Positions 16,551 to 58,322 of a stretch of DNA of 64,000 bases are shown piece by piece (the stretch's first letter is position 1; each line of letters begins with the position of its first letter). Source of the stretch: Protula sp. h YS-2021 (taxonomy: Eukaryota; Annelida; Polychaeta; Sabellida; Serpulidae); NCBI GenBank assembly GCA_949752745.1, contig OX457027.1, positions 79,043,214 to 79,107,213 of the forward strand. The letters are read 5' to 3'. Below the pieces are notes generated by a model. It was not told the DNA's origin and did no database searches. It worked only from the letters and a program-made list of their open reading frames with translations. A program made the translations under genes and the position numbers.

Positions 16551-17089
16551 TAACCGTTATCAGTATTTCTACAGGCAATGTTTATAATTTTAGAATCTAA
16601 ACGGTTTTAGCTAAACTGGATTTTAATTGTGATAATATTGTTTTTTTAGCCAGTCATTGACATGTATTGACTCAGTGTAAACCGCTAAGGATCGACCGCG
16701 TCGTTAAACAAATCATAAAACTAACTTGAAAGCTAATCCGACAGTTACCGCGTTAATAAAATCAAGTGTCTACTGCAGACGCACACATGCTTATACTCAC
16801 ACACAAACACAAACACAGCAACAGAGTGCTTCCTCTTTACGGGGAAAACACAATGATATATAGAATAATAAGCAATCGACAAAGTTTTATAAAACAAGCA
16901 TGTCCAGGGACATGGTGACCAGCCGTGACCTACAGAATATATATCCAAGATTCACAGACAAAATCATGATCAAATTCGCAGACAGCGGTTACGAAAAAAG
17001 CCGTAACTGAATGGAGAAAATATTCGCTCACTTGATCGGTGTAGTTGTGGCTGATGAGGAGTCATTCTTTCAATTCTTTCATTAGGGGA

Positions 17090-18337: not shown

Positions 18338-18589
18338 AAACAAGTTTGTCCAAGGACAAAGTCCCAGCTTACGAAAAGCAATAAGACCCATTCCAGCGTG
18401 CATGAGCGAAGGAATTTCCCTGAAATATCGGGCTTCAAAAGATGAGACGGCAAAGAGCTAGCTCAATAATTAATTTAGCACCGGACCACAACATAGACCG
18501 ATAAATGCATACAAAGATTTCTTTACGTGAAAAATGGGGAACAGATTTTTTGTATCTCTGGTAGACTGGATAGTCTGCCATAGATACCT

Positions 18590-21500
18590 TCAAACAACGC
18601 TCGCATTTTGGACCAGTGCGCATATTTATGTAACTTGCCTCGATGCGCGGTTCTTATTCAGACAAGTACGCATGTTTATTTAATTTGCGTTGATGCGCGG
18701 CTCTCATTTTGGAACCGTGCACATGTTCATTTAACTTAATAAAGATTAATGCGCGGTTCTTATTCCAGACCAATGCGCATGTTTATTTTACTTTCGTTGA
18801 TGAGCGGTACTTATTTTGGACAAGTGCACAAGTTTCCTTAGGTTGTCTTGATACGCGGTTCGCATTTCGGAAGAGTTTCCATGTTTATCTAACTTGCACG
18901 GTGCGCATGTTTATTTAACTTGCGTTGACGCGCGGTTCGAATATCGGACCAGTGCGCATGTTTATTTAACTTGCATTGATGCGCGGTGCTTATTCTGGAC
19001 CAGTACAAATGTTTATCTAACTTGCGTTGGAGCGTGGTTCACATTTCGAACCACTCCACACGTTTATTTAAGTGGCGTTGATGCGCGGTTCGAATTTCGG
19101 ACCAGTGCGCATGTTTATTTAACTTGCGTTGATGTGCGATTCTTATTTCGGATCAGTGCGCATGTTTATTTACCTTGTGTTGATGTGCGGTTCTTCTTTC
19201 GGATCAATGCGCATGTTTATTTACTTGTGTTGATGTGCGGTTCTTATTTCGGATCAGTGCGCATGTTTATTTTACTTGCGTTGATGAGCGGTACTTATTT
19301 TGGACAAGTGTACAAGTTTCCTTAGGTTGCCTTGAAGTGCTGTTCGCATTTCGGAAGAGTTTGCATGTTTATCTATCTTGCGTTGATTCACGGTGCTTAT
19401 TTTGGACGTGTGCATATGTTAATCTAACTTGCGTTGGTGCGCGGTTTGCATTTTGGACCAGTGCGCATGTTTATTCAACTTGCGTTGATGAGCAGTTCGA
19501 ATTTCGGACCAGTGCGCATGTTTATTTTACTTTCGTTTATGAGCGGTACTTATTTTGGACAAGTGCACAAGTTTCCTTAGGTTGTCCTGATACGCGGTTC
19601 GCATTTCGGAAGAGTTTCCATGTTTATCTAATTTGCACGGTGCGCATGTTTATTTAACTTGCGTTGACGCGCGGTTCGAATATCGGACCAGTGCGCATGT
19701 TTATTTAACTTGCATTGATGCGCGGTGCTTATTCTGGACCAGTACAAATGTTTATTTAACTTGCGTTGGAGCGTGGTTCACATTTCGAACCACTCCACAC
19801 GTTTATTTAAGTGGCGTTGATGCGCGGTTCGAATTTCGGACCAGTGCGCATGTTTATTTAACTTGCGTTGATGCGCGGTGCTTATTTTGGACCAGTGCAC
19901 ATGTTTATTTAACTTGCGTTGATGTGCGGTTGGCATTTCGGACCAGCGACCATGTTTTTTTACCTCGTGTTGATGTGCGATTCTTATTTCGGATCAGTGC
20001 GCATGTTTATTTACCTTGTGTTGATGTGCGGTTCTTCTTTCGGATCAATGCGCATGTTTATTTACTTGTGTTGATGTGCGGTTCTTATTTCGGATCAGTG
20101 CGCATGTTTATTTTACTTGCGTTGATGAGCGGTACTTATTTTGAACAAGTGTACAAGTTTCCTTAGGTTGCCTTGATGCGCGGTTCGCATTTCGGAAGAG
20201 TTTGCATGTTTATCTATCTTGCGTTGATGCACGGTGCTTATTTTGGACGTGTGCATATGTTAATCTAACTTGCGTTGGTGCGCGGTTTGCATTTTGGACC
20301 AGTGCGCATGTTTATTCAACTTGCGTTGATGAGCAGTTCGAATTTCGGACCAGTGCGCATGTTTATTTAACTTGCGTTGATGCGCGGTGCTTATTTTGGA
20401 CCAGTGCAAATATTTATTTAACTTCCGTTGGCGCGTGGTTCGCATTTCGAACCACTGCGCATGTTTATTTAACGTGTGTCGATGTGCGGTTCTTATTTTA
20501 GGCCAATGCGCATATTTCTTTAATTTGAGTTGATGCGCGGTTCTTATTCTGGACCAGTGCGCATGTTTATTTAAGTTGCGTTGATACGCAGTTCTTATTT
20601 TGAATAGTGCGCACGTTATTTAACTTGCGTTAATGCGCAGTTCGGTTCGCATTTCTAACCAGTGCGCATGTTTATTTAACTTCGTTAATGCTCGGTTCCA
20701 ATTTCTGACCAGTGTGTTTGTTTATTTAGCTTGCGTTAATGAACATTTCGCATTTTCCACCAGTGCGCACGTTTATTTAACTTGTGTTGATGCGTGGTTC
20801 GCATTTTGGACCAGTGCGCATATTTATTTAACTTGTGTTGGTGCTCGGTACTTATTTTAGATCAGTGCAAATGTGTATTTAACTTGCGCTGAGGAGCGGT
20901 TCGGAATTCGGACCAGTGTACCTGTTTCTTTAGGTTGCGTTCATGCGAGGTTCGCATTTCGGACCAGTGCGTAGGTTCACTTAACTTGCGTTGACAAGCG
21001 AATTGCATTTCGGACCAGAACGCATGTTTATTTCAGTCCCGTCGATGCCCGACTCTTATGTCTATTCAACTTGCGTCGATTCGTGGTTCTTTCTTCGGAC
21101 CACTGCGAATGTTTATTTAACTTGCGTTGATGTGAGGTTCTCATTTCAGACCACTGCGCATGTCTATTCAACTTTCGCCAATGTGTGGTTCTTTTTCGGA
21201 CAAGTGCGCATGTTTGTTTAACTTGCGTTGATGTGCGGTGCTTATTTTGGACCGGATCGCATGTTTATTTAACATCCGTCGATGCGCGGTTCGCATTTCC
21301 GACCATTGCCCATGTTTATTTAACTTGCGTTGATGCGTGGTTCTCATTTCATACCAGTGCGCATGTTTCTTTGGGTTGCGCTGATGCGCGGTTCTTTTTT
21401 CGGACCAGTGTGCATATTTATTTAACTTGCGTTGATGCGCGGTTCGCATTTCGGACCAGTGCGCATGTTTCTTTAGGTTGCGTTGATGCTCGATCCGCAT

Positions 21501-21595
21501 TTCGGACCACTGCGCATGTCTATTCAATTTGCGTCGACGCGTAGTTCTTTTTTCGGACCATTGCGCAAGTTCATTTAACTTGCGTTCATGCGCTG
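18590..21595 (+). repeat. 51 bp minisatellite array, open on both strands
   Basis: About 58 units of 51 bp with consensus parts GCGCATGTTTATTTAACTTG, CGTTGATGCGCGGTTC and (G/T)(C/T)ATTTCGGACCAGT. Because 51 is divisible by three, units translate to a 17-residue repeat (AHVYLTCVDARFAFRTS) in several long plus frames (18,894-19,325; 19,235-19,657; 19,633-20,166; 21,185-21,544). They also translate to a basic HQRKLNKHAHWSEMRTA-type repeat on the minus strand (21,168-21,659). Units of other lengths break every frame, so I annotate it as non-coding satellite. It lies in element H3. Confidence 0.85.
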
Positions 21596-23022: not shown

Positions 23023-23082
23023 GGACACCGCCCGCAAACCGATAGGAATACCCCAGCTTACGTGTAACGTAAGCTGGGCTAA

Positions 23083-25680
23083 AAATGTCCACCATTTGGC
23101 CAATTTTTGGCGTATCGCCAAAATGAGTCATTTTTCAAAAGAGACCTACCTAGGGAATATTCGTGCAAAATTTGAAGAAAATCTGACCAAAATTGTGGGA
23201 GAAGAAGCATTTTGAAAATTGGCAACCACAAAATTACAAATGTCCCCCATTTAGCCAATTTTGGCAGATCGCCAAAAGAAGTAATTTTTCAAGAGAGGTC
23301 TACCTAGAGAACAACTATCCAAAATTGAAAAAAAGAATCCGATCAAAACTGTGGGAGAAGCAATTTGAAAATTTGACACCAAAAACTTTAAAAATGTCCC
23401 CCATTTGGTCAACTTTTGGCGGATCGCCAAAATGAGTAATTTTTCAAAAGAGGCCTACCTAGGGAATATTCGTGCAAAATTTGAAGAAAATCTGACCAAA
23501 ATTGTGGGATAAGAAGCATTTTGAAAATTGGCAACCACAAAATTACAAATGTCCCCCATTTGGCCAATTTTTGGTGGATAGCCAAAAATAGTAATTTTTC
23601 AAGAGAGGTCTACCTAGAGAACAACTATCCAAAATTGGAAAGGAATTCGATCAAAATTGTGGGAGAAGAGGCAATTTGAAAATTTGACACCAAAAAATTA
23701 AAAAATGTCCCCTATTTGGCCAATTTTTGGCAGATCGCCAAAATAAGTAATTTTTTAAAAAAGGTCTACCTAGGGAATATGGGTGCAAAATTTGAAGAAA
23801 ATCTGATCAAAATTGTGGGAGAAAAAGCATTCTGAAACGAGCAACCACAAAATTACAAATGTCCCCCATTTGGCCAATTTTTGGCGGATCGCCAAAAAAA
23901 GTAATATTTCAAGAGAGGTCTTCCTTGAGAACAACTATCAAAAATTGAAAAGGAATCTGATAAAACTTGTGCGAGAAGAAGCAATTTGAAAATTTGACAC
24001 CAAAAAATTAAAAAATGTCCCCCATTTGGCAGATCGCCAAAAAAAAGTAATTTTTCAAGAGAGGTCTACCTAGAGAACAACTATCCAAAATTGAAAAAAA
24101 GAATCCGATCAAAACTGTGGGAGAAGCAATTTGAAAATTTGACACCAAAAACTTTAAAAATGTCCCCCATTTGGTCAACTTTTGGCGGATCGCCAAAATG
24201 AGTAATTTTTCAAAAGAGGCCTACCTAGGGAATATTCGTGCAAAATTTGAAGAAAATCTGATCAAAATTGTGGGAGAAGCATTTTGAAAATTTGACACCA
24301 AAAACTTTAAAAATGTCCCCCATTTGGTCAACTTTTGGCGGATCGCCAAAATGAGTAATTTTTCAAAAGAGGCCTACCTAGGGAATATTCGTGCAAAATT
24401 TGAAGAAAATCTGACCAAAATTGTGGGATAAGAAGCATTTTGAAAATTGGCAACCACAAAATTACAAATGTCCCCCATTTGGCCAATTTTTGGTGGATAG
24501 CCAAAAATAGTAATTTTTCAAGAGAGGTCTACCTAGAGAACAACTATCCAAAATTGGAAAGGAATTCGATCAAAATTGTGGGAGAAGAGGCAATTTGAAA
24601 ATTTGACACCAAAAAATTAAAAAATGTCCCCTATTTGGCCAATTTTTGGCAGATCGCCAAAATAAGTAATTTTTTAAAAAAGGTCTACCTAGGGAATATG
24701 GGTGCAAAATTTGAAGAAAATCTGATCAAAATTGTGGGAGAAAAAGCATTCTGAAACGAGCAACCACAAAATTACAAATGTCCCCCATTTGGCCAATTTT
24801 TGGCGGATCGCCAAAAAAAGTAATTTTTCAAGAGAGGTCTTCCTTGAGAACAACTATCAAAAATTGAAAAGGAATCTGATAAAAATTGTGCGAGAAGAAG
24901 CAATTTGAAAATTTGACACCAAAAAATTAAAAAATGTCCCCCATTTGGCCAATTTTTGGCGTATCGCCAAAATGAGTCAATTTTCAAAAGAGACCTACCT
25001 AGGGAATATTCGTGCAAAATTTGAAGAAAATCTGACCAAAATTGTGGGAGAACAAGCATTTTGAAAATTGGCAACCACAAAATTACAAATGTCCCCCATT
25101 TAGCCAATTTTTGGCAGATCGCCAAAAAAAGTAATTTTTCAAGAGAGGTCTACCTAGAGAACAACTATCCAAAATTGAAAAAAAGAATCCGATCAAAACT
25201 GTGGGAGAAGCAATTTGAAAATTTGACACCAAAAACTTTAAAAATGTCCCCCATTTGGTCAACTTTTGGCGGATCGCCAAAATGAGTAATTTTTCAAAAG
25301 AGGCCTACCTAGGGAATATTCGTGCAAAATTTGAAGAAAATCTGATCAAAATTGTGGGAGAAGCATTTTGAAAATTTGACACCAAAAACTTTAAAAATGT
25401 CCCCCATTTGGTCAACTTTTGGCGGATCGCCAAAATGAGTAATTTTTCAAAAGAGGCCTACCTAGGGAATATTCGTGCAAAATTTGAAGAAAATCTGATC
25501 AAAATTGTGGGAGAAGCATTTTGAAAATTGGCAACCGAAAAAATTTCAAATGTCCCCCATTTGGCCAATTTTTGGCGGATCGCCAAAAAAAATAACATTT
25601 TAAGAGAGGCCTACCTAGAGAACATTCGTGTATAATTTGAGAGGAATCCGATCAAAATTGAAGGAGAAGAAGCATTTTAA
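23083..25680 (+). repeat. Right part of the H2 satellite array with higher-order copies
   Basis: About 17 units of the same satellite as 17.09-18.34 kb. Long blocks repeat almost exactly: 23,376-24,005 matches 24,293-24,925 (offset about 917), and 23,092 onward matches 24,941 onward (offset about 1,849). The array therefore grew by recent duplication of multi-unit blocks after the older units diverged. Open frames such as 24,772-25,125 (-) are chance products. Confidence 0.85.
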
Positions 25681-30872: not shown

Positions 30873-33800
30873 TGCATATTACTAATGCGGACAAAGAAAA
30901 CAAAAGTCCCCGTAATGTGTAAACGCTCAATTCTTTGTTGATCAATGAAACAAATTAGCCGACGGAAATGAGTCAGTCACCAGGCTCGCGGGTAACTACA
31001 CGTTATTGTCATGATTGGTTGGAAAAGACTTTCCGCTGTTAATGTAGTTTCAAAAACAAACATTAAAAAACCTAAGCTAAATTAACGGCTTGTTACATCG
31101 ATAACATAGCAGAAACACAAACCATGTCTTAACCTAAAACATTACAAAAACTGGCATAAACAGACAGAACAGTTAGGCTTGTTAGTGGATGTAGCACTAC
31201 AAGCGCATTTCTATTAAAAATCAAACAAACATTAACAAAATACTGAAGAAAAAAAACACTATAATATGTAGAAATGAACTAATAGATTTCGCGGGGTTAC
31301 CATAGCCATGGTAATAACACGAGGAGACATGGGTGCAGAGGTACGCCAGGAAATGAGGTGCTTCATGGAGAGTACTTCCCTCAAAGGCGCGCCTCGGATC
31401 ATGAAATCAAAAAACTGCTACATGCGAGTTTTCTGGATAGTTATAGTGGTCTGTCTTCTTATTACAACAGTACTCTTCACAATAATGTTACTTCTTGATT
31501 ATCTCAAGTACCTCTCGGTAATAAACCTGAATGAGTACATAATGCTCAGTACATCTGACCGGGAGGAGCTCGAAAATTCTTACTATTTCACTTTCCCGGC
31601 GGTAACTGTTTGCAACGAAAACCCATTCCGTAGCAACTACTTCGACTACCTGCCAACGGGGGTATTCTCTGAAGCAGAATTCTCCGACACCTTCGTCGGG
31701 CAAATGAGTCATCTCGCCACAAGCGAAGAGGTAAAGCAAGACTTCAGAGCATACGGGTATCTCATCTACATAGCAGAGCGCATGTACAGGCCACTCAACT
31801 ACTACCAGGTCCTCGGACAAACCTTCGACGATTTCTTCGTCAGTTGTTTCTTCATAAGCAACAATAACAAAGACAATGACGAGCTGCCGTGTAGGATTGT
31901 GGCGGAGATCGAGCAGCGGACCTTACCTCACAGCCTCACTTGTTACAAGCTAGAATACCGGGGCTCTGGCACGGTGACGCGAGCCAGCATCACTGGCCTC
32001 TCATTCATACTCTATCTGGATAACTTCTCACGCTTTGTACCGGAACGCGGCTTTGATTACATGAATGACTTTCAGAAGCAAACTGGAATTGAAGTGATCA
32101 CTCACATGCCCCATACACACCCGCACGTCTTTGATGCACACAGCAAATTCCCTCCAGGACTGAATGTCCAGCTCACAGTGAGTACAAGAGGAAGAAAACG
32201 TCTGCCACCGCCGTACAGTGACTGCGATCGTAATAGCAAAGCCTTGTATGGTTTTAATGCAGAGTACAATTCCTACACTCAAAATGGTTGCATTATGGCA
32301 TGTGAACAAACCCACATCACGGCCAATTGCCGATGCACCTACGCCCCGAAGTACCTCTTCTTCGATGCGGACAGCAGTCACGTAGACTATACTCGCTACC
32401 CATTCTGTCACTCAGTAAGCTTCGTGAACATGAGCCAAGTCATGGCACGTATACAATGTGCCCACGCGGTGATATCCCAGGTAGAGCAGCGGTGCGTGGC
32501 CGAGTGCAGGCCCAACTGCACGGAGATCCAGTTCTCCCACTCATCCACAGCGGCCCAGTGGCCGGCTAAGAACACCCAGCTGGCCTTCTACAACACCGCC
32601 GTGGCCACTCCAGCCGCTAACTCAACTCGCTACGAGAAATTCGCGCCAACTTTCGAACCAATCAACCAAGCCGTACAGAATGGCAACATAACACAGGCGC
32701 TACACCTACTGGAATCCACAAGCCTCATCGATAGGAACTTTGTGAAAGTCAGAGTCACACTGGATCAAAACAACGTGTTGGCGTTTGAGAGTCAGCCTAT
32801 GATAAAACTCAATCAGTTCTTTTCCATGTTAGGAGGGACGCTCAATCTCTACGCCGGCATTACCTTTGTGTTTCTCTTTGAGCTCTTTGAGTTGGGCATC
32901 AAGATATGTTGTAATACGGCAAGTGCATTAAAAGCTAAAAATAAAAGCTGTCCAAAAGCACTTCAGCCGGGTGAAACGAGTGAACTGAATTTGCAAACGC
33001 ACAGTCTAGACTGGGCTACTGGTAACGTGAAACTCGAGAAGTAGAAAACTCCATTACATTGTTTTAAATTAAGACATAATTATTCTTATCTAGGACAGCT
33101 CCCAGATAATTCCTCTGAACACAATTGTGATCGCGGTGTACAAAACATGCTGACGTTGAAATTGTAGCTCAGAAATAAAAAATTGTTTTCTCGTTCAACT
33201 AGGATCTACTGAAGGTTCCCTTTCGACATTTTCACTTTAGTTTCCGCAATGAAAATAAGGGAAATTTCTTCATTCATGGACCTAAGCCACCCCGGTATAT
33301 AAACCGTACTCCTGTTGTCTAAATATTTCATCACTGGTTTTAAATTTTTTCGAACTGGGATATTTTAAATGATTTTTCCAACTTGATGTGGAAGTAAGCC
33401 ACTAAACTCTTTTCTGTATCGATATCGTTTTGTGCACCAAATGCCAGGGAACGAAATGTACATGAAAACAAGGCAGATTTCGCTACTTAAGTGTATACAA
33501 ACAGACGGTAAACAGTCATCTGCCCCCCGGGTCAACTGACCCCCCCCCGTCAACTCCCCCCCTTTTTTGCAACCCGGTCGCCTCCCCCCCCCCCTGCAAT
33601 TTTACGGGGTCGTCATCTGCCCTACTCCTTTTTTTAGTGAAAAAAAAAATTCTTTGAAAAATTAGGCAATTGTGATGTCCCCGTCTACTTCGTCTCTAAA
33701 ACAATTGATCTTCATTGATCTATTCACAAATATTCATCTTCGGAGAGACTGATCCTTAAACTAATTGCAATTCTAATTGCAATTAGTTTCCTATTGGTGA

Positions 33801-36800: not shown

Positions 36801-39597
36801 AAGGAAATGTCTAATAACGCCCTACAGTGACTGTGATCACAGTGGCAAACCCTGTTTGGTTATAATGGTGATTACAACTCTTAATCTCAGAACGGCCATA
36901 TAGTTGGATGCGAACAAAACCACATCACGGCCAAATACCTTTACTTCGATGAGGCCAGCAGCCAAGTAGACATGAATCATTACCCATTTTGTCACAATTA
37001 AAGCCCTGAAACGCATTCAATGTGCACACACAGGAATATCCAGGTAGAACAGCAGTGGGTGACAATGCAAGCCTAACTGCACTGAGATCAAGTTCACTCA
37101 CTCAATGGCCTACGAAGAACACCCAGCTGGCCTCCACCAATGCCGCAATAGCTGCGCCCGTCAAAAACTCGACGCGCCGTGGGCAGTTTGGACCGACGTT
37201 TAAACCAAACGTACTCTTTAAACGTACTCACAATAAATTGTATGATATTTTCAAAAAAGTGTATTAGCGACATAGTACGGATAGCTATAAGTAATAATGT
37301 AATTGAAAGAGTGCACTGTACAAAGTTTTTGGGTGTCTTAATTGATGATAAATTACTATGGAATGAACACATTAATAGAGTCACAAGCAAACTGTCAAAG
37401 TGTTGTGACATTATGTTTAAAGCTAGAAATCAAATTGACTCGCAAGCACTGTTAATTCTATACAATTCTTTATTTTTACCCTATCTAAGTTATTGTTCAG
37501 AAGTTTGGGGCAATACATTCAAGGCAAAACTCCAACCTATAGTGTACCTTCAAAAAAGAGTGGTGCGCATATTGAGCAACGTACATAAATACGCACACAC
37601 AACAAAAATTTTTTATAAAAACAATATTTTAAAGTTTCAGGACTTAATTGCATTTAAAACCTCGTGTGTTATGTTTAAAGCTTTTCACAGTCATCTTCCT
37701 AAAAAGAGGCAGCTATACTTTGAATTAGGACAGAATAAAAGTCAGTATTTAACTCGTCAGTGCAAAAAAAATTAAAATTAATTATACCAGAACAAGTATA
37801 AAAACGAAGTGCCTATCGGTGGTAGGTCCGAAAATTTGGAATGCACTTCCTAAACGTGTGACTGACAGCAAAAGTATTCAATGTTTTAAGCAAAAACTCA
37901 AACAGCATTTCATAATGCAGTGCAACGATTAGGATTCTAGGTATATCAGTTGACATATCTTTAACCAAAAATTTGTTCCAATTTATATGCTAAGTTTATT
38001 CATGAAAAGCAAGTTCTCGAATAAGTTCATAACTACTAATCCTTGCCTTTCTGATTTCAAATATGTTGTTATTCAGATATTGTAAACCTGTTAAATTTTG
38101 TGTTTGTATTTTTTCATGTCGATTATTGTGCCAATTGTATGCATTATCCTTGAAATCGGAATAAACCATTCATTCATTCAAAAGCCGAGGCCGTACAGAA
38201 TGGCGATACAACACAACTGCTTCATTTAGTCCCACAACCCTCATCGATAAGAACTTTGTCAAAGTCACAATTACACTGGATCAAAACAATGTGCTGGCGT
38301 TTGAGAGACAGCCTATGATAAAACTCAATCAATTCTTTTCTATGTTAGGCGGAGCGCTTAATCTGTACGCCAGCATGGTCTTTATGTTTCACTTTGAGCT
38401 GGCTCAGTTAGGCATAAAGACATGTTGCAACGTGACAAGTACACTAAAAGCTAAAAATAGAAGCTGTCTAAACGCAGTGGAAATAAAGAAACACGTGATG
38501 TCAGTTTACAAACGCCCAGTCTATGGTAAACTGGTAACCTTAAACCTGAAACTGAAACCCTGAAAACTTTAAAAACCTCTTTTATCGCCTCATGTCCTCT
38601 TAGACCCTACGTTAAGTTTCACATAAAGGACAACAGATTTAAACTCTGCGGTAAGTAATTCTACTTAGCATACTTGTAATGCCTAAGAGATGACTATATA
38701 CATTTGAATCTTTTTGCATAAGCATAAACATGAAAAAGTCTTCGGAATTATTAGGATTTTAATATTAACCGTGATCAGACCAATCACACAATGTATTAAT
38801 GCCTAAATGTCTGGTCAACTCCCTCTATAATTGGTAACTTCAGTAGAATCCAGCTGTGTCGCAAATGATTGTCAGAAAGTGCGTCGGTATGCGACTCGCA
38901 ACACTGTTTCTGGACTTGCAAATGCAACCAGTTACCCGGGAAAATAAAAGTATTTGCAACGTTAGGATTTTGTGTTTTTACCTACAGACCTCCAGCCTTT
39001 ACATAGGAAAATTAAAGTTTTTTCATGTAGCCCTCACCACCCATTCCAACTCTGCTTAACAATGGATAATTTGCAATTTCAAAATTCACTAAGAAATATA
39101 ATCCATCATAAACACATAATTTCATGAAAACTGAAAAGAAAAGAACAGTAGCAGACAACGACAGCAGACAATACTAATAACACTTTAAGAACATCTTAAC
39201 TTTGAGCTTTGAACCTCACTTAACTAGAACTCACTTTTAGAGACTGGTTTTCTGTCTGAAGTCTCTTTTTAGAACGAAGAAGTTGGCGTTTAGTGTTTTG
39301 CAATAGACTTAAATCCTGCTTTAGTTCCCTGTTTTCTGTTTCTAGCCTGGATTTTTGGTCTAGTTCACTTTCGAGTTGAAACTGAAGTTCAGCTGTCTGA
39401 AAGATCATATCAATTTTGACTGTTGTGATTGAAGTAAAAACACATACAGTTACATAACTTAAGTACAGCAGCAATATTGTGGTACGGCCAATGTTATGAT
39501 GCTTGTATACATCAAGTGACCATGGGCCTGCTTATCCAAACGGGGATTATACAGAATACTGTCAAAACAAAACTTCGATAAAGCAGAGTATATCAAA

Positions 39598-39657
<60 letters not shown>

Positions 39658-42600
39658 AAAATCATATGCATTTTACTATATCAGTTAATACAAGATAATT
39701 CTAAATATTGAGCATTTTTGGGTTCGAGTTATCAATTATGTACTGTAACTGATGGGTTATCAGCATCATTTGGATCAAACGCTTACTTGTTCTGCGTTAA
39801 TTGGTGTTTATTTAAGTGATTTGTACAATCAATTGATGACGTTAAATGCTTCCTAACTGTTTAAATTCGGAACAAAAGGTCATTTTATGCTTGCTTTGTC
39901 ATCCTTTACACAGTTCCGTTTAGCAATCCGGTAATTTGCGAATAACAGTTCTTTTTCTTTACAGCATCGATTTAGCTTTAGCAACACCTTTTTTTTTTAG
40001 TTTGTGTGCAATTTTTTGTGAACTTTCTGCAAGTTTGTCGTCGCTACTATGATAAGAACGATAATCAATTAATAATTCAGCTATTTGTTTCTGATCCGCA
40101 ACAGATGACTATGTAGATAAGAGTTTGCCTTCTGTTGCAAGCTCCATTCAAATTCCTCCTATTCGCTACATTATAAAGATATGGGGAAATACATGCACTT
40201 AAAACATAACTATCCATTAACTCCACGTTAATGTATAGTTAATGTATACATTAACTCCACATTAACGCCCCAAGAAACGTGGTGAGAAATATGCCAATGA
40301 AAACTTATGTACAATAGTGAGTCTGGGACCAAATTATGGGCTTAAATTAAGCGGCGAACCGAATCAAAAGGGGACGAATTAAGGATACCAGAAAAAATCA
40401 CAGTAATAAACTTTGACGAATTGTCTGTAAACCAAATTTCAAGCATAAAAAGACTCTGTAATCTTATGAATTCTTACGAATTTTTATGAAATAAATACTT
40501 TGTATCACTTTTTAATTCTTAGAAAACTGTTTGTTTGTTTGTTTGTTTGGTGTTTAACGTTCCGTTCACCAACTAGGATGGGTATATTAGGACGCACTTG
40601 CTAAAGAAACAAGTGGGAAAAAAGAAGGAAGAATGAAGAAATAGTAAGAGAAGAGCTAGAAAGAAAGAAATTCCGATTAGACACCTCTTATGCCATGCAC
40701 GGAACAGAACGCAGTGGGTGTATTCTTAAGAATCGCCCCACCGCACAGGATGACTTAGAAAACTGAAAACATAAGGTGATCACATTGCCCCATCTGATGC
40801 TGATTTGACGCTTTAGCGCATCGGTTACCTAACGAAAGTGTCACCGCCAATTTGCTGGGGCGGACCATGTCGCTTTTGATTTCGCGTCACCAGTCTGCTG
40901 CCGCAATTAGTTATAAAAAACAAGCCAAGCCAGTATTCGAGTTTTTAGGTGTGTGTCTTACTGGAGGTCTGATGGTAAATACTCAGGAGACGACTCCCAA
41001 AACGAATAAAGCATTATTAAACATAAGCACAATTGCAGCCTATAAATGGCACGGCTATGGCTCCTTGTCAAGCGACATGACTGGGACAACAACCAAAAAC
41101 TAAAGAGCAAGAAGCGATCCTGACAGGAAGGGTTCTGTACGAGAAGCGATCCTGACTGGAAGCGTTCTGTACTAGAAGCGATCTTGACAGGAAGCGTTCT
41201 GTACGAGAAGCGATCCTGACAGGAAGTGTTCTGTACGAGAAGCGATCTTGACAGGAAGCGTTCTGTGCGAGAAGCAATCCTGACTGGAAGCGTTCTGTAT
41301 AAGAAGCCCCACGCCGCAACACTACATCTTCCAACTCATATTTGATTGCGTTAGTTACCATCAATTGTTTTTTTTTCTCCAGTTGATAGCTGCCTTGCTG
41401 CCCTAGAAATAACCTTCAAAATTGCCAAATTAGTGTTCTGGTGTAATTTGTCGACAAAACAACGTCATCAACTTCAATCATTTGTCTGGTGTGATTCAAA
41501 CTTTGGACCACTTTCATCAGGCACTGATATAAAGTGCAAGAACTGACACATTTTTTAAAAAACATTTACTATTTTTATTTGATCAATGCAAGGAAGTGTC
41601 AAGGCGGAAATGGCCCAAAAGTATTAGTTAATTGCTTGAACACACATGCCATTTACATATTACTTTTCATTGACGTGGCTAGCTAATGGGTGTTAAAAAG
41701 TGCAACAATTTCATTCAAATAATTGGTTGAGCTCGATGAAAAAACTACAGCAGAAGGATTAGAAGAGTGACAGGAACAGCCGCATTACGGTTGTCGCACT
41801 GCCTGTTCATTTATCGTGACAAAATGTAAATAATTTACATATTAAAAATAATATACATATTTCATAGTCAACACAGTGACCCAAACAAATTCAAAGATAA
41901 AGGTAAAGACAATAATAATGTAAATAAAGTTATCACTGGATATCAGGGGTCGCCATGGCAACGGTAACAAAACGGCGGCCCAGTATGGCTGAGGTACGCC
42001 AGGAAATGAGGTGCTTCATGGAGAGTACTTCCCTCAAAGGCGCGCCTCGGATCATGAAATCCCAAAACTGCTGCATGCGAGTTTTCTGGATAGTTATAGT
42101 GATCTGCCTCATGTTAACCACTGTTTTCTTCACGACAATGTTAATTCTTGAATACCTCCAGTATAACGCAGTCATCAACATGGAAGAATACATAATGCTA
42201 AGCAGATCAGACCGGGAGGAGCTCGAAAAGATCTATCACTTCACGTTCCCGTCAGTCACCGTGTGCAATCAGAGCCCTTTTCGAAGTGACTACACTGACT
42301 TCTTACCAGGCGGCGTGCTCTCCCACAATGTCTTTACAAACATGGCGACCGCGCAGATGCACCACGTGACCGTGCCGGATGCCGTTTGGCAGGATTTCAG
42401 CGCCTACGGCTACCTCACATACCTGGCCGAGACCACGTACCAGTACCACTACTCGCACACTGTGCTTGGACAGACTTTCGATGACTTCTTCATCAGCTGT
42501 TATTTCATCAGCGATGACAATACGGACAATGAGGACCTGTCGTGCCGTCGCGTGGGTATCGTCAATATGAGGCTCCTCCCCTTCAGCGTCACCTGCTTTC

Positions 42601-45600
42601 AGATCGAGTTCCTGGACCAAAGCAGGGTGAAGCGTAACAGCGTCACGGGACTTTCCATGATCCTATACCTGGATAACTTCTCCGACTTTATACCCGTACA
42701 TTTCTTCGATTACGCCAATGACTTCCGGAAACAAACGGGCGTGCATGTTATCACGCACCTATCTGGCACCAACCCGCAAATTTACGACGCGCACAGCAAA
42801 TTCTCTCCCGGTCTCAACGTGGCACTGACGGTGAGCGCTAAGGCAACCCTGCGCCTCCCGCAGCCATACAGCTTGTGCGATGACACGGGTCGCTCCTTGT
42901 ATTACATAGACGGCATGCGCAACTCCTACTCCCAGCAGGGCTGTATCATGGCTTGTGAGCAGGACTTAATCAACGCAGACTGCAACTGCGTCTACCCTCC
43001 GAAATATATGTACTTCAAACGGGATCTCGGGATGAGACTGCTGGGCCAGATGCCGTTCTGTCACTCGCTGCGAGAGGGAAATATCAGTATAACATTTGAT
43101 CAGATCCACTGCGCACAGGATACCATATTCAGGTACGAGCAGCACTGCGTAAACAAATGCAAGCCCAACTGCACGGAGATCCAGTTCTCGCACTCATCCA
43201 CAGCGTCCCAGTGGCCGGCCAAGAACACCCAGCTGGCCTTCTACAACACCGCCGTGGCCACTCCAGCCGCTAACTCAACCCGCCACGAGAAATTCGCGCC
43301 AACGTACGAACCAATCAACGAAGCTGTAGCGAACGGTAACGCAACAGAGGCGCTACGCCTGCTGAAATCCACGAGCCTGATCGATGACAACTTCGTCAAG
43401 GTCACCATCAGCCTGGACCAAAACAATCTGTTGGCATTCGAGAGTAAGCCCATGATGAACACGAGTAAGTTCACGTCCATGCTGGGCGGGACGCTCAACC
43501 TCTACGCCGGTATTACGTTTGTGTTCCTCTTTGAGTTGGTCGAGCTGGGCATTAAAATCTGTCACAATGCCGCCAATAAGTTCAAGAGTAGGAACCAAAT
43601 CACTCAAGTGCAGGTTACAACGAGATGTGGTAGAACTGTTTTGCAGCCTCACGCCTCGTGACAGTTCTACTCTACAGTTGCAAAACAGGTTGACACCAAG
43701 ATGAAGGACTTTGTCAAAATCTATTGCTATTGCTTTTACATAAGCATTACGGAAGGCGAAAAAGTAAAAAGTGAGAAGCGAAATGACTTTACTTTCATCT
43801 CACTCGTAATGTATAATACATTTATTAACGCGATTTCAATTATTCTTCCGGTTAGATGCTTCATTTCCTTTGGAAAAAATGGCTCTGTGGTCACTGTAGA
43901 TATACGAAGTAATTGTGTACAATACATTGTGAAGATGTTCAGTGTCTGATGCAGAAAAAACGTCTTAGCGCCTGTAAATAGGTTTGTTTGCTATCTGTCC
44001 TGTAAAAAACACTGTATTATTTAAAATAAGAATTTATCAAGCAAATAAGAATTCAGATGATTTTTGTCATGAGTGAAATCGGCTAAATTGACTACGGTAG
44101 TCTATTCCGGAATAGACAACCGTCTATTCTGGAATAGACTACCGAAGTTAAAAGTTCTCTGGAATAGAACGTTTTAAATTTTTCATATATATACATTGTA
44201 GCATATATTACTTACAAGTTTTATAATATTTAAATTTAAAATTACACAACAACGTTCCACTTAAAAGGATTTGAAGGTCGGTAGTCTATTCCGGAATAGA
44301 CTACCGTAGTCGTAAAATGCGTTAGTTCACCCATGACAAAAAATTTCTTATTTGCTTGATAAATTCTTATTTTAGATAATACACTGTTAAAAGCACTTTA
44401 AAAAGAGTTAGCAATAAAATTGCCCTTTAGAGAAAGAGTGCGATTTGTAGCAAATATCAATTAAGCTTTAGGACATTGAAGATTTTTTTCACAAATCAAG
44501 TATATATAAGCGGAAATAAGTACACAGACATACAAGTACTTATACGTGGTATATATTACTGTTAATTGTACCTGTTTCCGCAGAGAATTAAGCGATTTGT
44601 CCATCTCTGCTCGCTCCTGCGTAAAGCTATTCTGTAGCACGTTATATGTATTTTCAGGCGTGTCTAATTCCTACATGCACACAACAAAAACAACACACTG
44701 AAACATCAGCAAAAAACGAAAATAAAAGCACTAATTTTTCAAAGCAAAACTTTTCTTATCCCAATGTTCTCATGTCCTAAATTTTTGAAACCCCAAACAT
44801 TCTCTGAGTTTGAATTTGTTTCAAGAAGTCTGAAAACACCATTTAATAAGAAAACTTTCACTCTCTGTAATTTTTTGTTGCATTTTTTCCCCTTTTTGGT
44901 AGGTAGAGGACGGGGGGGGGGGGGGGGGCGGGCTTAGTGGTGGTCTCCGATGTGACAGCGAACTTTCTAGCAAAACAGTTCACACCACCTATCGCAAGTA
45001 CAATTATTTTTCTGGCTCGTTCCCACATTTTGGGCACACTTGGGGAGGGGGGGGGGGGGAGGGGGGAGGGGGGAGGGGGGACGAGGGGAGGGGTAACGTA
45101 ACGAACGGGTAAGGATATGTTATGGAGTACAACTGTAAGTATCGTTCGCTACTGCACACAAAGTATCGATACGTGTAGAGAAAAGACAAGCTAGGGAGAC
45201 ACGGAGATTTCATACACTGCTGCCATGTTTACTCTACTCTACAGTTGCAAAACAGGTTGACACCAAGATGAAGGACTTTGCCAAAATCTATTGCTACTGC
45301 TTTTACACAAGCATTACGGAAGGCGAAAAAGTAAAAAGTGAGAAGTGAAATGACTTTACTTTCCTCTCACTCGTAATGTATAATAAATTTATTAACGCGA
45401 TTTCAATTATTCTTCCGGTTAGATGCTTCATTTCCTTTGGAAAAAATGGCTCTGTGGTCACTGTAGATATACGAAGTAATTGTGTACATTACATTGTGAA
45501 GATGTTCAGTGTCTGATGCAGAAAAAACGTCTTAGCGCCTGTAAATAGGTTTGTTTGCTATCTGTCCTGTAAAAAACACTGTATTATTTAAAATAAGAAT

Positions 45601-50294: not shown

Positions 50295-53200
50295 TGTTTG
50301 TTTGTTTTTTTTTTTGTTTAATTTATTTATGTTTTTTGTAAGCAAAAAAAAAATTCTCTCTTGGATTAAACCCATAAATAACAATTTCGTATTTTTTTCT
50401 GAAGGAAATGATTAATTTCTATAGACATAACCATAATTTTTTTTCTCTGAAAATAGTACAAACTTTATCAAATGAAACTATATGAAAGAAATGTCACAGG
50501 AAACATTTGTTTTGTTTTTTTTGTTTACAAAAACAAAAAGGAAACTGCTGGCTAAAATGTTTGATGCCTGTAAATACGACAATACCCTATGTCTCCAAAT
50601 CCTGATTGGTCTGACAGGGGAGAGTGAGGGGGTTCGTTTCCTCAAACAACTCTTTTGATCAAATGTGTTATATTTCTTAGAATAAACACATAACTTGGGT
50701 GTTTTTTTTACTCCTGACTCGATGACGTAATAGCTGTCACTATCGCACAGAAAGGTCAATAACAAGCAATGTAAGAAATAGCCATGGATCGATAGTTGTG
50801 CTGTTACGATTTTCAAGTGTGCCTATAGAATGCAGTAACACTCGGGAATCTTGTAGAAAACGCTGAAATCGCCAGGGGTAGTTAATAACTATGTTTAGCT
50901 AACTAATGAGCCGACAAAACGGGAAGAGGGGGTGGTTTTAGATTCAGGGACTGCAAAATATATCACGCAATACTTTTTACGCAATGGTGCGGTTCTTTTC
51001 TTTATGAGGTTTAGGTATAACGAAGATCGTGGGACTTTCCGCTGTCGAGATATTTTTCACCTAACGTTTTTACCTAATGACGTCATATGCCGTTTCGTTC
51101 GTTCCACTCTCGACAAAATTTGACAGAATCTTCCGGACCTATCAAAGCAACATTTCCACCAAGTTTGAACTTTCTGCGATGGGCAACAGCTGAGAAATCT
51201 TAGATATAACGTTTTAACGTAATGACGTCATACGTCTTTCATAATTTCGCTACATCCGTCAATAGCTGATGCACCTATCCGAGTGATCAAAGAAATATTC
51301 ATATAAAAATTTCACGTCGTTACGACTTTTCGTTATCGAGATATTTTGCACACAAGATCTTGTTCAAATTATAACCCTATTTTATCTGATGACCTCATAC
51401 GCCGTTTTCGTTCGTTCCGCTCGCTACAAAATTTTGTAGAATCTTTCAGACCTACCAAGCAACGATCCCACCAAGTTTGAACTTTCTCCGATGTTCAACT
51501 TCTGAGAAATTTGGTATACAAATGTTTACCTTATGAATCATACGCTTTCCTAAATAATAACATGTGTCAAAGGTTGATAGAAACGTCCGACTAACCAAAG
51601 GAATAAAAAGACTAAGTTTTAAAACGATCTGACTTTTCGTTCTCGAGATATCTTGCGCACAACATTTTTTTCACAACAGACTGACACAAACACACATACA
51701 CACAGAACGTACAAACACTATGCCTCCCTCGGTCGAAAATACATAAAAAGTCCGTTGGATGAAGGGTTTTCGAGACTGCAACGTCCAATGATAACCTAAT
51801 ACGGTAATGGCCGGCTGTATTAAAAAATCGAGAACTGCCACATATTGGGCACAGTCCAATCGAAAAGTCTCTGCTACGAGAAAAATGTACTCGATATTTA
51901 TAAAGGTCCCAAAGAAATCTCAGGTAACTGACAAATGGAAGACTGGTTTAAAAAGAGCTACAGTATATATATTTTTTAAATGAGTCACACACAAGAAAGA
52001 GCACGGAGATGAGAATGCTTTCACACAGAAAACGCATGAATCTTACGTTCATATGCAGTTTGTATCTTGTATTTTCAGCTCTGAGGCTACCTAGCTGCTC
52101 TTCTGAACGCACATACGCCTGCGGGGGCACAACAACCGGATATACGGCGCTTCACCAAATGTCACACGGTCATACTATTCCATGACTATTAAAAGCAAAC
52201 AACCTCCCCCTCCCCCCAGTTCCACCCCTCCCTCCTTCCCTCCTGTCCTTAAAATGTAAATTTTAGCTTAAAAATCTAAAAAATCTTATCTATTCCGTAC
52301 AAAGGAGTCTTAAGTTGGACAAGTGTGGGGGGAATAGGTGACACTTATAACATTTCACTACTGGTTAAACTCACTCCTAGTTTGTCTTCTAGATGCGCGT
52401 TAGTGCTTTTGTAGTTGCTTAGTAGCGCTTCCAATGTTATGCGCACCTGGACATGACAATGAACGAGACAAATCTCGACTGATTTATCAGCCCTTTTTTC
52501 ATTCAGAATTAAGTAAAATTTCATTTGTTCCATAGCGGGTTCATTACAGGGTAGGGACAATATATTCAATAAAGCAAAAATATCAAGATTTACTGGTGTA
52601 TACACTGCAGAATGGAAAGTTCACTTCAGACTAACATCGCACCTGGGTATGGACCTAGCGCTCTTGGGTCACAGCGGAAATCTTCTAACACTACTGAGCA
52701 CCAAACCACTGACCCATGCTCCCGTGCAATTTTAAGGCCCTCATAGACCACCCCCTCCCCCCCCCCCTTAGGAAAAAGGTATACTGGTAAAAACAGGATC
52801 CTGGTAGTTTACAACAGAATCCCGATGCTATTCCAAATAGTTATTCTAGATACGGCGGAATCCTGATACAGGTACCAATAGCACAAATCCTGAAATTTCA
52901 CCAGGATCCGGACGAATTTCAACTAGATTGCGACCGTGATATCGTCATGGTATACAATTCTTGGCATTTTATCGCAGTTGAATCCCGGTCGGGTATCTAT
53001 TTTTCTCTGGGGCCGGGGTGTATGGACTGACCTGTCTGGAGTCGGCGAGTTCCTTCTGGAGCGCCTCGACGCGCTGCGCCTCGTGCTGTAGAGCCGCCTC
53101 CAGCCTCGTCTTCTCCAGCTCCAGCTTGTGTGCGTTCTCCTCCGCCTCCGACTGCCCAAACAACAATAATAAGCCGCCATCACTTACGGACCAGCTGTAC

Positions 53201-56200
53201 ACTTATAATGTCTCTAAGGTATTAGCACTTCGGCTTAAGTTACAACAACCCTAACCCAACAAGCCGCCATCACTTACGGACCAGGTGTACACTTACAATG
53301 TCTCTAAGGTATCATCACTTCGGCTTAAGTTACAACAGTTTGTTCGTTAAATTTGCCAAAAAAAAATGTATTACCACATTTTATTGGCGAAAGGACATTT
53401 TCATTAAGATCAGCTTTTGGTGGGAAATAAATAAAATAAAGATTTCATTATTCGGGTACTTATGGAATCAGCTTGATAAGCGCGTTTGAGTTTAGCGAAA
53501 GGTCACCACTAACGAAAAACCATTTTATAACATTGATCTTAGTGGTGCACTCGGGGACACTTTAGAATAATTGCAAGAAGCAGCCACTGTTTCCAAGAAT
53601 ATAGGTCGTTATATTCCAGAATTCTCATAATTGTAATAGCAATCTTCAAGGAGCTAAAATTACTCTAACTTTGCACATCTTTCTGCATGCATGACCATGA
53701 AAACAAATCCATCAACAAAATAATAAGACTGACAAAGCTTTTAGAACTTCTTTCAAAAAAGAAAAGAAAAGAAAACAACACATTTATCCCACCACTACAG
53801 TCTATTAACAAAAACACACAACAGCATGCAAAGCTACAGGAGACTGTTGAGGGGCCATGAACAAGACTAAAACGATAGGATAATCGGTACGAAAAAATAA
53901 AACAATGTAATAAAACAATGATATATCTCTTTTATCTTTCACTCAAATAAAAATTTACTTAAATTTGTATGGTTTCCCAAGTAAAATTTTACGAAATGTG
54001 TATATGACGTAGGTAACTTTGGATACTGAAGTTCTAATAGCTTATAAATGACACCGAGGTGAGGCAGCAACTGATCCATTTCTTCATACGTAAAATAACG
54101 TAAAAATGTAAAAACGTAAACAGACTATTAGCCGAAGCGGAATGCAACCAGCAAGCAAGCAGCACAGCATGCATCACTTGGCGATCAATATCACAACAAT
54201 AAGGGACGATCGAATAAACTATAATATTCTTCATTTATAGGACGTGAGGCAAAGCTATTAAGATATGAACGGCCTGATGCATTGTGGACGAAACGGAGTG
54301 GATGTTTTCTTGAGAAGTGTGTTTGAACAGTGCTAAATTGGTGACGGGGATATATTTTTTCGTGCCCATGCTGAAAGTAAATACCTTCATGTTAAACGGA
54401 AAACCCATAAAACCTCCCTGAAAAAATCAACATTTTTTTATCAATTAACTTTTTTTTATAACATTCAAAACTGGGAATTAAACCATGTTTATACAGCGTT
54501 ACATATTTACAACGAATTGAGCAATGTACAGCGAATAAACAAAACCTTACCAATCGCTTTGCATCCTGCAAAATGTTAAAAATTTACAATTATTTACAAC
54601 TGTGCGATCTTGGGAGACGCCCTGCAAACTACGGAAAAGCTCATCTTTCTCAGTTTCCTGAATGCGTTTCTGTTCTATGATCATCTATTTCGTCACTATC
54701 AGTTTTTATGCCACAGAAGACTTTTTTTAAACTTTATTTTATAAATGTTTCCGCGGAAACAGACAGCCAAAAAAAAAAAAAAAAAACGATTCTCACCTTG
54801 CCAGTGGCTAGCGCCGAGAAGCTGTCATTATGCGCGGCTAACTGCTGTGCAGAGTTGGCTGCGTTCGTCTCGGCTCTTTCGACTCGTTCCACTAGCTCGG
54901 CGACCTTGCGCTGGGCCTCGAGTTGCTTCTCCGTGGAGTCGGTTAAGCGTGCCTGTAGCTTGTCAACTTCTGCTCGGAAATGTGACCGCTCCAAGTCGAC
55001 CTGCTCTTTGCTCTTCAAAAGACATGAAGGCACGTTTTGAAAAGAATTTCTTTTAATTTTATTAAATTTACATAACATTAATCTGTGGTACTTTTAACCA
55101 CAAAACTTTATTAAATTTACGAAACTAAATAAAGCGCTCCATCGAATAAAAAGAAAATCACACTTAATGAACACAAACTGACTTTATCTATTTTGAATAA
55201 AATATCACTTCATTAAAATAAGCATAAACCCCCATACTCGACGCTACCCATATTTTAAACAAATAAATTAGCTTTGATCAAACGTAGTTACAAGCAGCTA
55301 CCTTGTTAGCTACTTGTAGCGAGGCCTCAGCCACGGACAGCTTGCGCTGTGTCTCTGCCAGCTCGTTCTGGACAGCGCGTAGCTCCGTCTCCAGCGAAAT
55401 GCGCCGGTTATCCACCGATCGAAGCTCCTCTTTCAGGTGAATGATCGAGTCGTTTAATGCCGAGTTCTTTTCCTGCAGTGCTGCCTGGTTCTGTGATTGA
55501 TGAGACATGCATTTTTTTTTACACGGCGGTTCCTCAACTCCCTTTCAGAATTTAATTGCATTTTCTACCATTACCTTTCTGGAGTGGTATGAACAGAAAG
55601 GAACCACAAACAGGTGATAGCGGAAGGTGCTTCCAGACTCCACAAACACTAGACACCCAAGCTCCCAGCACACAAACACACACACACACATAGAGTACAA
55701 TCTCAACCAAAAAATGAAATTCACCGTAATTGTAAACAACCCATCAAAGCGACTGTCGTTATTTCAGCACAAAAAATATCATGCAATAACCATTGTATCC
55801 TCGAAATACCCTGGATGATTCTGGAATGGTATGTTCACAAGGCGAGGAAACAGCAGCTTGCAGAGCTCTGAAGCATGACTTAGCACGACAAGCGATGTAT
55901 ACCTTTTCTTGGTCCACCCTCAGCGAGGTGAGGACGGCATTGAGATTCTCCGCGCCCTCGCCCTTGGCGTTGGCAATGCGCGCCTCATCGAGCTGCTGAC
56001 GTAACGTGAGTGTCTCGTGCTGTAGGCTAGTGACGCGCTCCTGTAGTGCCTCGTGACGAGCCTCAAGGCGCGCTTTCTCCTCCTTTTTGTTTTTTTGTTT
56101 TTTTTGTTGGCAAGAGAAAAAAAGAAACACAAAATTTCCTTGTCTTTTTAAAGCGATAACGAAATAATTTTATGAATGTGGTGACAAGAGTAACTTTACT

Positions 56201-58322
56201 TACAAGTGGACTCTGAAAAAATGGCACTAGGCGTAATTACTTCACCCGATTTACCGTTTAGGTACGTAATGGAAGTACTGTTGTTTACAAGGAGTACCAT
56301 CCGATGCGGCAGAATGACTGGGTACTAGCGATGTTACATACGTCATAGGCATGCATAATTCATTGTGTTGTTACCATGCTGTTTCTGTACTCAATGTTTC
56401 AGATGAACAAGGAAATTATTTGTTGGAATGTAAAAACTTATCATGGAATGTCATTTATGGCATTTATAAAAACGAAACAAGTAACGCCCTCTTTTGATAA
56501 AAAATATACAATTGTAATGAACACGCACCTTTTCTTTTTTGATATTATCATCGAGTCCTCCCTGATTGTTACGACGCAGGTCTAGTTCTTTCTGTATCGT
56601 CGTCAGCTGATTGGTCCGCTCGACCAACGTGGCATTCGCAACTGCCAGCTCGTTTTCGATACGAGACACTTTACTTTCGGATTCCCTCAACCGAGACTCA
56701 ACACTCTGAAAAAGGCCACAAAAATTCCGAAAATTCCATGGCGATTAACTGCACTAAAACCTCTGAATCAGAATGAACACCTTCCAGACAGCCTAAAATG
56801 TACATTGTGAGCGGGTGTTCACTAAAGAGAGAGTCATTTTCATAATAAAAGCTGGAAGATAGTGTTCCTCACCACAGATGTCCACTTGGTAGATGTGTTT
56901 ACTGACTACGATTTCGCTGTACTTTTCTAGCAGAAAAAAACTCTTCATTCTCAAAAGTTTGGGTCACCAAATGTATGTGTCGCAAACTGCCTAAGAGCCA
57001 CCGATCTGTAAAGCTCACCGTTTAGGGTCTGATTACACTTCGTCCTCCTCCTCCCCACCCCCCCCCCCCCCGCAATAAAGCACTTGATGAAACTCCATGA
57101 GGCGAACCATCTCTTGCTTCCCGCCATACTGAAATGCCCTCACCCACCTGCCCCCTCAATGCGCCCCATAAAGGTGCCCCCACAAGGTGCCCGCACTTTT
57201 ACAATTCCATCCCCCCTCCCCCATCTCCATAAGGCTGTTCGCACCTGGTGGGACTCCTTGAGGCGTGTGAGGCGTGCCTGCCCTTGCTGCCCGCGCTACA
57301 AATCCCCCCTCCTCCCCCATCTCCATAAAGCTGTTCGCACCTGGTGGGACTCCTTGAGGCGTGTGAGGCGTGCCTGCCCTTGCTGCCCGCGCTACAAATC
57401 CCCCCCTCCCCCATCTCCATAAAGCTGTTCGCACCTGGTGGGACTCCTTGAGGCGTGTGAGGCGTGCCTGCCCTTGCTGCCCGCGCTACAAATCCCCCCT
57501 CCCCCATCTCCATAAAGCTGTTCGCACCTGGTGGGACTCCTTGAGGCGTGTGAGGCGTGCCTGCCCTTGCTGCCCGCGCTACATATCCCCCCCTCCCCCA
57601 TCTCCATAAAGCTGTTCGCACCTGGTGGGACTCCTTGAGGCGTGTGAGGCGTGCCTGCCCTTGCTGCCCGCGCTACAAATCCCCCCTCCCCCATCTCCAT
57701 AAAGCTGTTCGCACCTGGTGGGACTCCTTGAGGCGTGTGAGGCGTGCCTGCCCTTGCTGCCCGCGCTACAAATCCCCCCCCCCCTCCCCCATCTCCAAAA
57801 AGCTGTTCGCACCTGGTGGGACTCCTTGAGGCGGGCCTGCTCTTGCTCCCCGCGCTCCAGCAGGTGGCGCCACTCGTCGCGATCCTTCTGGCTGGAGCGC
57901 TCCAGGTCGCTGCGTGCAGATTGCTCCTTGCCAAGCTCCTTCGTGGAACTCTCCAAGCGTGTCTTCATAGAAGCCAGCTACACATAGATGAAAATTTACC
58001 TCGTGTTTGTGCGGCTCTTCTCCTTATTGTTATTATTTATTTATTTATTTGCTTATTTTCCAGTAAAATTCTTATTTTACATTAGTTTATTTGCATTATT
58101 TTTTGCCGCATTTTATTATAATCATTATTATCATACTATACTATCAAGGCGCCCAAGACAGAAAGGGGATTCAAGATGACCGGTTTATATGGAAACTTTA
58201 CCACAGAAAACATGATGTACACTTATAAACTATTGTAATTTTATTTATTTGTTTATTTTATCTTTATTCATTACTTATTACTTATTATTCTTATTACTGT
58301 TATTATTATTTTTATTATTGAA

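Follow-up and report, generated by a model that had tools for sequence, protein, structure and literature searches.

Tandem copies of an exon end with candidate splice sites in intron 8 of an ANKRD26/CCDC144C-like gene of the annelid Protula sp.

Intron 8 of a multi-exon ANKRD26/CCDC144C-like gene of Protula sp. h YS-2021 carries, on the minus strand and directly after exon 8, six tandem units derived from the end of that exon. The array is probably a recently amplified, nearly neutral exon-edge minisatellite with decoy splice sites, and an mRNA that contains none of the units would be the main product. It is most likely a variant of the known intron gain by tandem duplication and not a working device for protein variation. 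What distinguishes the locus is a combination: a true donor is paired with an exonic GAG codon six times over, each unit holds a complete would-be intron and a frame-neutral exonlet, and an eroded earlier copy lies alongside. The locus is thereby a snapshot of would-be intron and exon birth, with six fresh copies bearing full sets of splice sites and one eroded copy, and it poses jointly the questions of how the spliceosome chooses among seven identical donors and whether very short G-rich segments lacking a pyrimidine tract are removed. All coordinates refer to the window, the whole stretch of 64,000 nucleotides that was analysed.

Results

The host gene

A total of 18 exons (63280-46777) were rebuilt from splice sites and from similarity to two relatives, giving a composite of 873 residues. 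The composite matched Pfam PF14915 (CCDC144C coiled-coil region) over residues 182-708 with 231.1 bits against a cutoff of 35, and its best relatives, at 40-45% identity, were an annelid protein and mollusc ankyrin repeat domain-containing protein 26-like proteins; on this similarity the gene is classed as ANKRD26/CCDC144C-like. Ankyrin repeats were absent from the composite, whose first codon is the ATG at 63280, with exons past the window edge being possible; among the relatives, none were listed for P0001 and P0002 and several were present in P0003. Later exons, down to 28894, were partly traced, with C-terminal pieces matching at 30382-28894. The vertebrate ANKRD26 has been studied at centriole distal appendages, as described in PMC11984956.

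Exon 8 has an open frame, the acceptor TGTGTAG and the donor CAG/GTGCGA, and is 50.9% identical to Mya P0002 461-515; on its own it aligned with PF14915 over residues 2-54 at 26.9 bits, under the curated cutoff of 35. The shortest of the 17 reconstructed introns is 202 nt. Two native acceptors are unusual in composition, that of exon 4 being G-rich and that of exon 10 A-rich, and the relatives align gaplessly at both. The exon 10 acceptor (56083-56102, minus strand) has a near-pure A tract in place of pyrimidines, with the boundary backed by similarity to relatives. An 18-nt microexon (DIRREL) with good splice sites was found in the same gene at 60294-60277 (minus strand), and an intronic 90-bp tandem duplication (53171-53337; 1.9 copies, 94% matches) stops some 20 bases short of exon 13. 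When the end of exon 8 was compared with its own intron, array included, the score was 28; for the 16 remaining exon ends, each compared over at most its last 58 nt with its own intron, the best score was 10 and no duplication was evident.

Organization of the array

Exon 8, the six units and exon 9 are arranged as follows.

57813..57977, minus strand: exon 8, 55 codons, phase 0 at both ends; the last 42 nt and the donor are the repeat source
57766..57812, minus strand: pseudo-intron 1, 47 nt, 25 G, without the TTTAT branch-like motif
57715..57765, minus strand: exonlet 1, 51 nt, RGQQGQARLTRLKESHQ
57673..57714, minus strand: pseudo-intron 2, 42 nt, 20 G
57622..57672, minus strand: exonlet 2, 51 nt, identical to exonlet 1
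57579..57621, minus strand: pseudo-intron 3, 43 nt, 21 G, with the GATATGTAG variant
57528..57578, minus strand: exonlet 3, 51 nt, identical to exonlet 1
57486..57527, minus strand: pseudo-intron 4, 42 nt, 20 G
57435..57485, minus strand: exonlet 4, 51 nt, identical to exonlet 1
57392..57434, minus strand: pseudo-intron 5, 43 nt, 21 G
57341..57391, minus strand: exonlet 5, 51 nt, identical to exonlet 1
57296..57340, minus strand: pseudo-intron 6, 45 nt, 22 G, with an extra GGA in the G tract
57245..57295, minus strand: exonlet 6, 51 nt, identical to exonlet 1; followed by the seventh donor at 57244
56529..56705, minus strand: exon 9, the conserved partner of exon 8; resembles Paralvinella P0001 and Mya P0002, with a gapless junction

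Tandem Repeats Finder placed the array at 57211-57833 (6.6 copies, period 93, 97% matches). The donor CAG/GTGCGAACAGC occurs seven times on the minus strand, at 57812 (exon 8), 57714, 57621, 57527, 57434, 57340 and 57244, with successive spacings of 98, 93, 94, 93, 94 and 96, and all seven donors are identical over the 31 nt compared (20 nt before the cut and 11 nt after). Every unit consists of a G-rich segment of 42-47 nt ending in TAG, 51 nt in phase 0 and a copy of the exon 8 donor. The six 51-mers are a single sequence, which translates in the exon 8 frame into the 17 residues RGQQGQARLTRLKESHQ.

These results bear out the earlier note on this DNA, which had reported six tandem copies of the exon 8 end together with its donor and intron bases, a unit of 93-98 bp and the phase-0 arrangement of AG, 51 nt and GT. 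Some details are revised. The note rightly named the exon end as the source, and the part copied is a quarter of exon 8 (42 of 165 nt), not its 3' third; the would-be introns are G-rich as described, with lengths of 42-47 nt and not uniformly about 42 nt; and the units, rightly called duplicates, are inexact ones, since the 51-mer differs from exon 8 by three substitutions (two amino-acid-changing and one silent) and by a 9-nt insertion, which is a tandem doubling of CACGCCTCA.

Between any two units, 0 to 2 of 81 positions differ (with the G tract collapsed, which also masks the extra GGA of unit 6), so the six-fold amplification would be recent or the copies would have been kept alike by exchange. 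Units 1 and 3 bear substitutions of their own and unit 6 its extra GGA, and the length differences lie mostly within G runs. G is the commonest base in all six pseudo-introns (20 to 25 G each), every one of which contains runs of 5 and of 6-11 G. Each of the six units has a stretch of four G runs from which a quadruplex could form. For a 233-nt RNA made of two units plus almost the whole of the following pseudo-intron, 200 of 200 shuffles folded as well or better (z 2.41), and no stable RNA fold is thus indicated for the array; a search of the whole window against Rfam at gathering thresholds returned no match.

Origin of the unit and its phase

The unit acceptor sits at a GAG codon of exon 8: CTG GAG/CGC GGG in the exon reads TTTGTAG/CGCGGG in the units, the bases before the AG coming from the intron side after duplication. 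We infer a tandem duplication of roughly 85-90 bp that began at this GAG codon, close to the exon 8 end, and reached about 40 nt into the intron; the copied exonic AG would then have come to lie downstream of the original donor, so that each copy resembles an intron of 42-47 nt followed by a 51-nt phase-0 exon. A founder unit may next have gained the 9-nt duplication and the three substitutions, after which unequal exchange or slippage may have multiplied it to six copies.

The phase-0 symmetry was considered as a feature of special significance and this was rejected: of the 293 AG dinucleotides counted across the rebuilt coding sequence, 202 stand at the end of a codon, and when the duplication is made to start at each of 150 points in exon 8, the first AG falls in phase 0 for 122 of them, so that phase 0 of the unit acceptor is expected from codon content. 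This suggests a rule, namely that coding DNA rich in GAG, AAG and CAG, for example that of coiled coils, would yield mostly phase-0 exonlets when an exon end is duplicated.

An older copy in the same intron

Downstream of the array, a further copy of the exon end was detected that is absent from the earlier note.

57129-57176, minus strand: pseudo-intron-like part of the decayed copy, G-rich, similar to the G-rich stretch of the unit
57084..57128, minus strand: decayed older copy of the exon end, 45 nt, YGGKQEMVRLMEFHQ, without the 9-nt insertion

The Smith-Waterman score of this copy was 22, whereas 2,000 dinucleotide-preserving shuffles reached 16 at most and the same query run against the 16 other introns of the host gene reached 9 at most; nhmmer recovered it at 57176-57085 with E=0.0034. 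It is identical to exon 8 at 31 of 42 nt (26% diverged), and its donor scores 3.6 bits against 8.3 for the donor of exon 8 and the units. Six of 14 residues are changed relative to exon 8, where a neutral simulation expects 6.9 (P of 6 or fewer = 0.36); the amino-acid changes are compatible with neutral drift, and with 14 codons the test has little power and weak selection is compatible as well. The frame is open, as it is in 59% of the neutral simulations. An AG near the lost acceptor scores 3.8, above the fresh units, which counts against plain decay. Over its 14 codons the copy gives no sign of retention as a coding exon. Together with the fresh array it indicates that the exon edge was duplicated at least twice, or once with later turnover.

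Splice potential of the units

When all pseudo-introns were removed exactly in silico, products with 0 to 6 units all kept the frame open; the earlier claim that any number of units is frame-neutral thus holds, provided that every pseudo-intron is exactly removed. Twelve partly spliced products were also constructed, in which each pseudo-intron was retained with the earlier ones removed, or donors 2-7 were each used with nothing removed before them, and all 12 reach a stop 30-101 residues past exon 8. For pseudo-introns 2, 4 and 6 (42 and 45 nt) the acceptor TAG is itself the stop.

With a matrix derived from the host gene, each unit donor reaches 8.3 bits, which places it at the 99th percentile when compared with 2,358 other GTs. 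For the acceptors the matrix comes from only 17 native sites; it gives the units 0.6 to 2.8 bits, or the 63rd-82nd percentile among 2,114 other AGs. With this 17-acceptor matrix every unit acceptor lies above three native ones, those of exons 4, 8 and 10, and the highest lies above 5 of the 17. The exonic AG ancestral to the unit acceptor scores -5.1, so the new context is the better one. The fraction of pyrimidines from -20 to -5 is 0.12-0.19 before the unit AGs, against a native median of 0.62 (n=17), and some native acceptors are also poor in pyrimidines (exon 4, 0.31; exon 10, 0.12). Five of the six pseudo-introns contain TTTAT, a branch-like motif of the YTNAY type, 27-30 nt from their end. 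Splicing has been described for human G-rich introns, 43 and 49 nt long, that have no usable branch and 3' sites (PMC4463651; PMC8363638), and removal of the pseudo-introns of the array is accordingly possible.

The exon 8/9 junction and the coiled-coil register

The relatives used here are the 55 proteins with E <=0.001 among the matches listed from 7,988 scored candidates; they represent 33 species by name count, 8 annelid or mollusc and the others vertebrate, with several isoforms of one species included. In all 55 of these listed relatives the exon 8/9 junction is gapless over 55 columns, which indicates that the protein with zero units is the ancestral one. Core positions run continuously across the junction in 33 distinct rows (window included), and one heptad register holds over the last 14 or so residues of exon 8 and on into exon 9. 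The core positions that close exon 7 follow a different register, so a natural register change occurs within exon 8, and a coil with such a change might tolerate a unit.

The unit peptide had been called heptad-like, a description that we abandon. Its 17 residues make two heptads plus three, so that one unit would shift the register by three; a discontinuity of this kind is a stammer. The peptide contains two glycines, and core-type hydrophobics account for 2 of its 17 residues (0.12, against 0.16 for exon 8 and 0.24 for exon 9). On these grounds the unit was rejected as a natural heptad extension. A protein search with two units included returned none at E <=0.001 among 6,377 candidates; true relatives were missed too, and the result therefore says little.

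Discussion

Interpretation of the array

If the array is a nearly neutral minisatellite, as we consider probable, most mRNA would join the exon's own end straight to exon 9 and encode the ancestral protein. The seven identical donors would then be decoys, accompanied by weaker decoy acceptors, use of a downstream donor without removal of the upstream pseudo-introns would lead to a premature stop, and in-frame inclusion of exonlets would be minor at most. The size of the pseudo-introns, 42-47 nt against 202 nt for the shortest reconstructed intron, speaks for this reading, as do the low pyrimidine content before the unit AGs, the gapless junction in the 55 listed relatives and the changes in the older copy. 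Speaking against it are unit acceptors no worse than several native ones, the TTTAT motif in five of six pseudo-introns, the open frame and the 3.8-scoring AG of the decayed copy, and the natural discontinuity of the coil.

Since the unit acceptors score within the native range, splicing of the pseudo-introns as real G-rich ultra-short introns is possible, and the exonlets might then be included in variable number, giving coiled coils of up to seven lengths from one gene, with unit number as a heritable length setting. We regard this as unlikely. The strong donors, the open frames with 0 to 6 units and the branch-like motif all suit it, as does the resemblance of the 42-47 nt, mostly G segments to the human 37-65 nt class, as that class is described, which includes the spliced 43- and 49-nt G-rich introns; the identity of the six exonlets suits it as well, though recent amplification accounts for that too. 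It is opposed by the absence of any insertion at the exon 8/9 junction in the 55 listed relatives, by a peptide that is not made of whole heptads, by an older copy changed in both protein and donor and, with little weight, by the empty two-unit search. The earlier proposal of a variable coiled-coil length fares accordingly: acceptors that outscore native ones and the splicing of human G-rich 43-nt introns, as described in PMC4463651, are on its side, whereas the gapless junction and the neutral-like drift of the older copy tell against it. It is rather improbable that the minisatellite is a row of alternative micro-exons whose DNA copy number sets the count of 17-residue blocks that can be spliced into a conserved coiled-coil protein.

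An effect on output rather than on structure is also conceivable. The extra strong donors might generate stop-containing mRNAs that are destroyed, so that unit number tunes expression, the array being an accidental or a selected poison element. Stop-containing mRNAs can be degraded by nonsense-mediated decay, and the seven identical strong donors, the stops in all 12 partial products tested and the acceptor TAGs that are themselves stops point in this direction, but the use of the downstream donors and the degradation of the mRNA are assumptions of this reading, which we judge doubtful. Less likely still is an assembly artefact, whether in the number of units or in the array as a whole. G runs are poorly read by sequencing, the units are nearly identical with length differences mostly in such runs, and the array is known from one sequence; against this, units 1, 3 and 6 have their own marks, and the decayed copy shows past duplication of the exon end apart from the fresh array.

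Comparison with known systems

In human duplicated genes, minisatellite-type internal tandem repeats that overlap exon-intron boundaries have been described, and the authors proposed that they may cause novel introns (De Grassi and Ciccarelli 2009, PMC2812944). The present array resembles those repeats, as described there, in that tandem units of this type cross the boundary between a coding exon and its intron and have expanded in a single lineage: it spans the exon 8 donor, and the 55 listed relatives have no insertion at the protein level. It differs from them, as far as that account extends, in its invertebrate host, in a unit where an open exonlet of 51 nt separates an AG from a donor, and in being known here from DNA.

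Intron gain through repeated or duplicated segments has been described in fission yeast, with repeat-borne introns and tandem copies of a 24-nt unit (PMC3629103), in Drosophila (PMC2891723) and in potato, where parental splice signals are combined with a cryptic exonic site (PMC4974935). In these accounts, as in the array, a duplicated segment supplies the pair of splice sites for a new or would-be intron. The classic tandem-duplication model, as described, works by doubling an AGGT within an exon, with no change to the peptide, whereas here the segment spans the exon end and the intron start, a genuine donor is paired with an exonic GAG codon, AG and GT are 51 nt apart, and each unit included adds 17 residues. 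In the wider sense of intron gain, both sites of the would-be intron come from the duplicated segment and its neighbour, given that the donor equals the exon 8 donor over 31 nt and the AG lies at the position of the exon 8 GAG codon.

The human G-rich ultra-short introns of ESRP2 (43 nt) and NDOR1 (49 nt) (PMC4463651, PMC8363638) are, as described, similar to the pseudo-introns in size, in G being the commonest base, in G runs and in the scarcity of pyrimidines before the AG; all six pseudo-introns fall within that class (37-65 nt, G commonest, G triplets or longer). Unlike those introns, they are probably recent products of duplication and are introns only putatively. Our literature search returned precedents for tandem duplication and for ultra-short introns and no array of the present kind, which is no proof that none is in print.

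Other features in the window

The plus strand carries two DEG/ENaC-type channel genes (PF00858) with uninterrupted frames, at 31278-33041 and 41928-43658; they share 63% identity over 551 residues and lie inside the ANKRD26-like gene on its opposite strand. Given their lack of introns, they may be retrocopies. A third copy fragment at 38165-38560 (plus strand) comprises the C-terminal part only and is 73% identical over 83 residues to the gene at 31278. It adjoins an open frame (37152-37772, plus strand) that returned no match in Pfam at 0.01 or 0.001 and that, judged by eye, we take to resemble the end of a non-LTR retrotransposon reverse transcriptase. A 51-bp repeat forms a long array at 18599-21593, with higher-order periodicity at 153 bp and with long open frames in either strand; the equality of its period with the exonlet length is probably a coincidence. 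The 51-bp array is flanked by arrays of seemingly one 155/310-bp satellite unit at 17089-18340 and 23080-25678.
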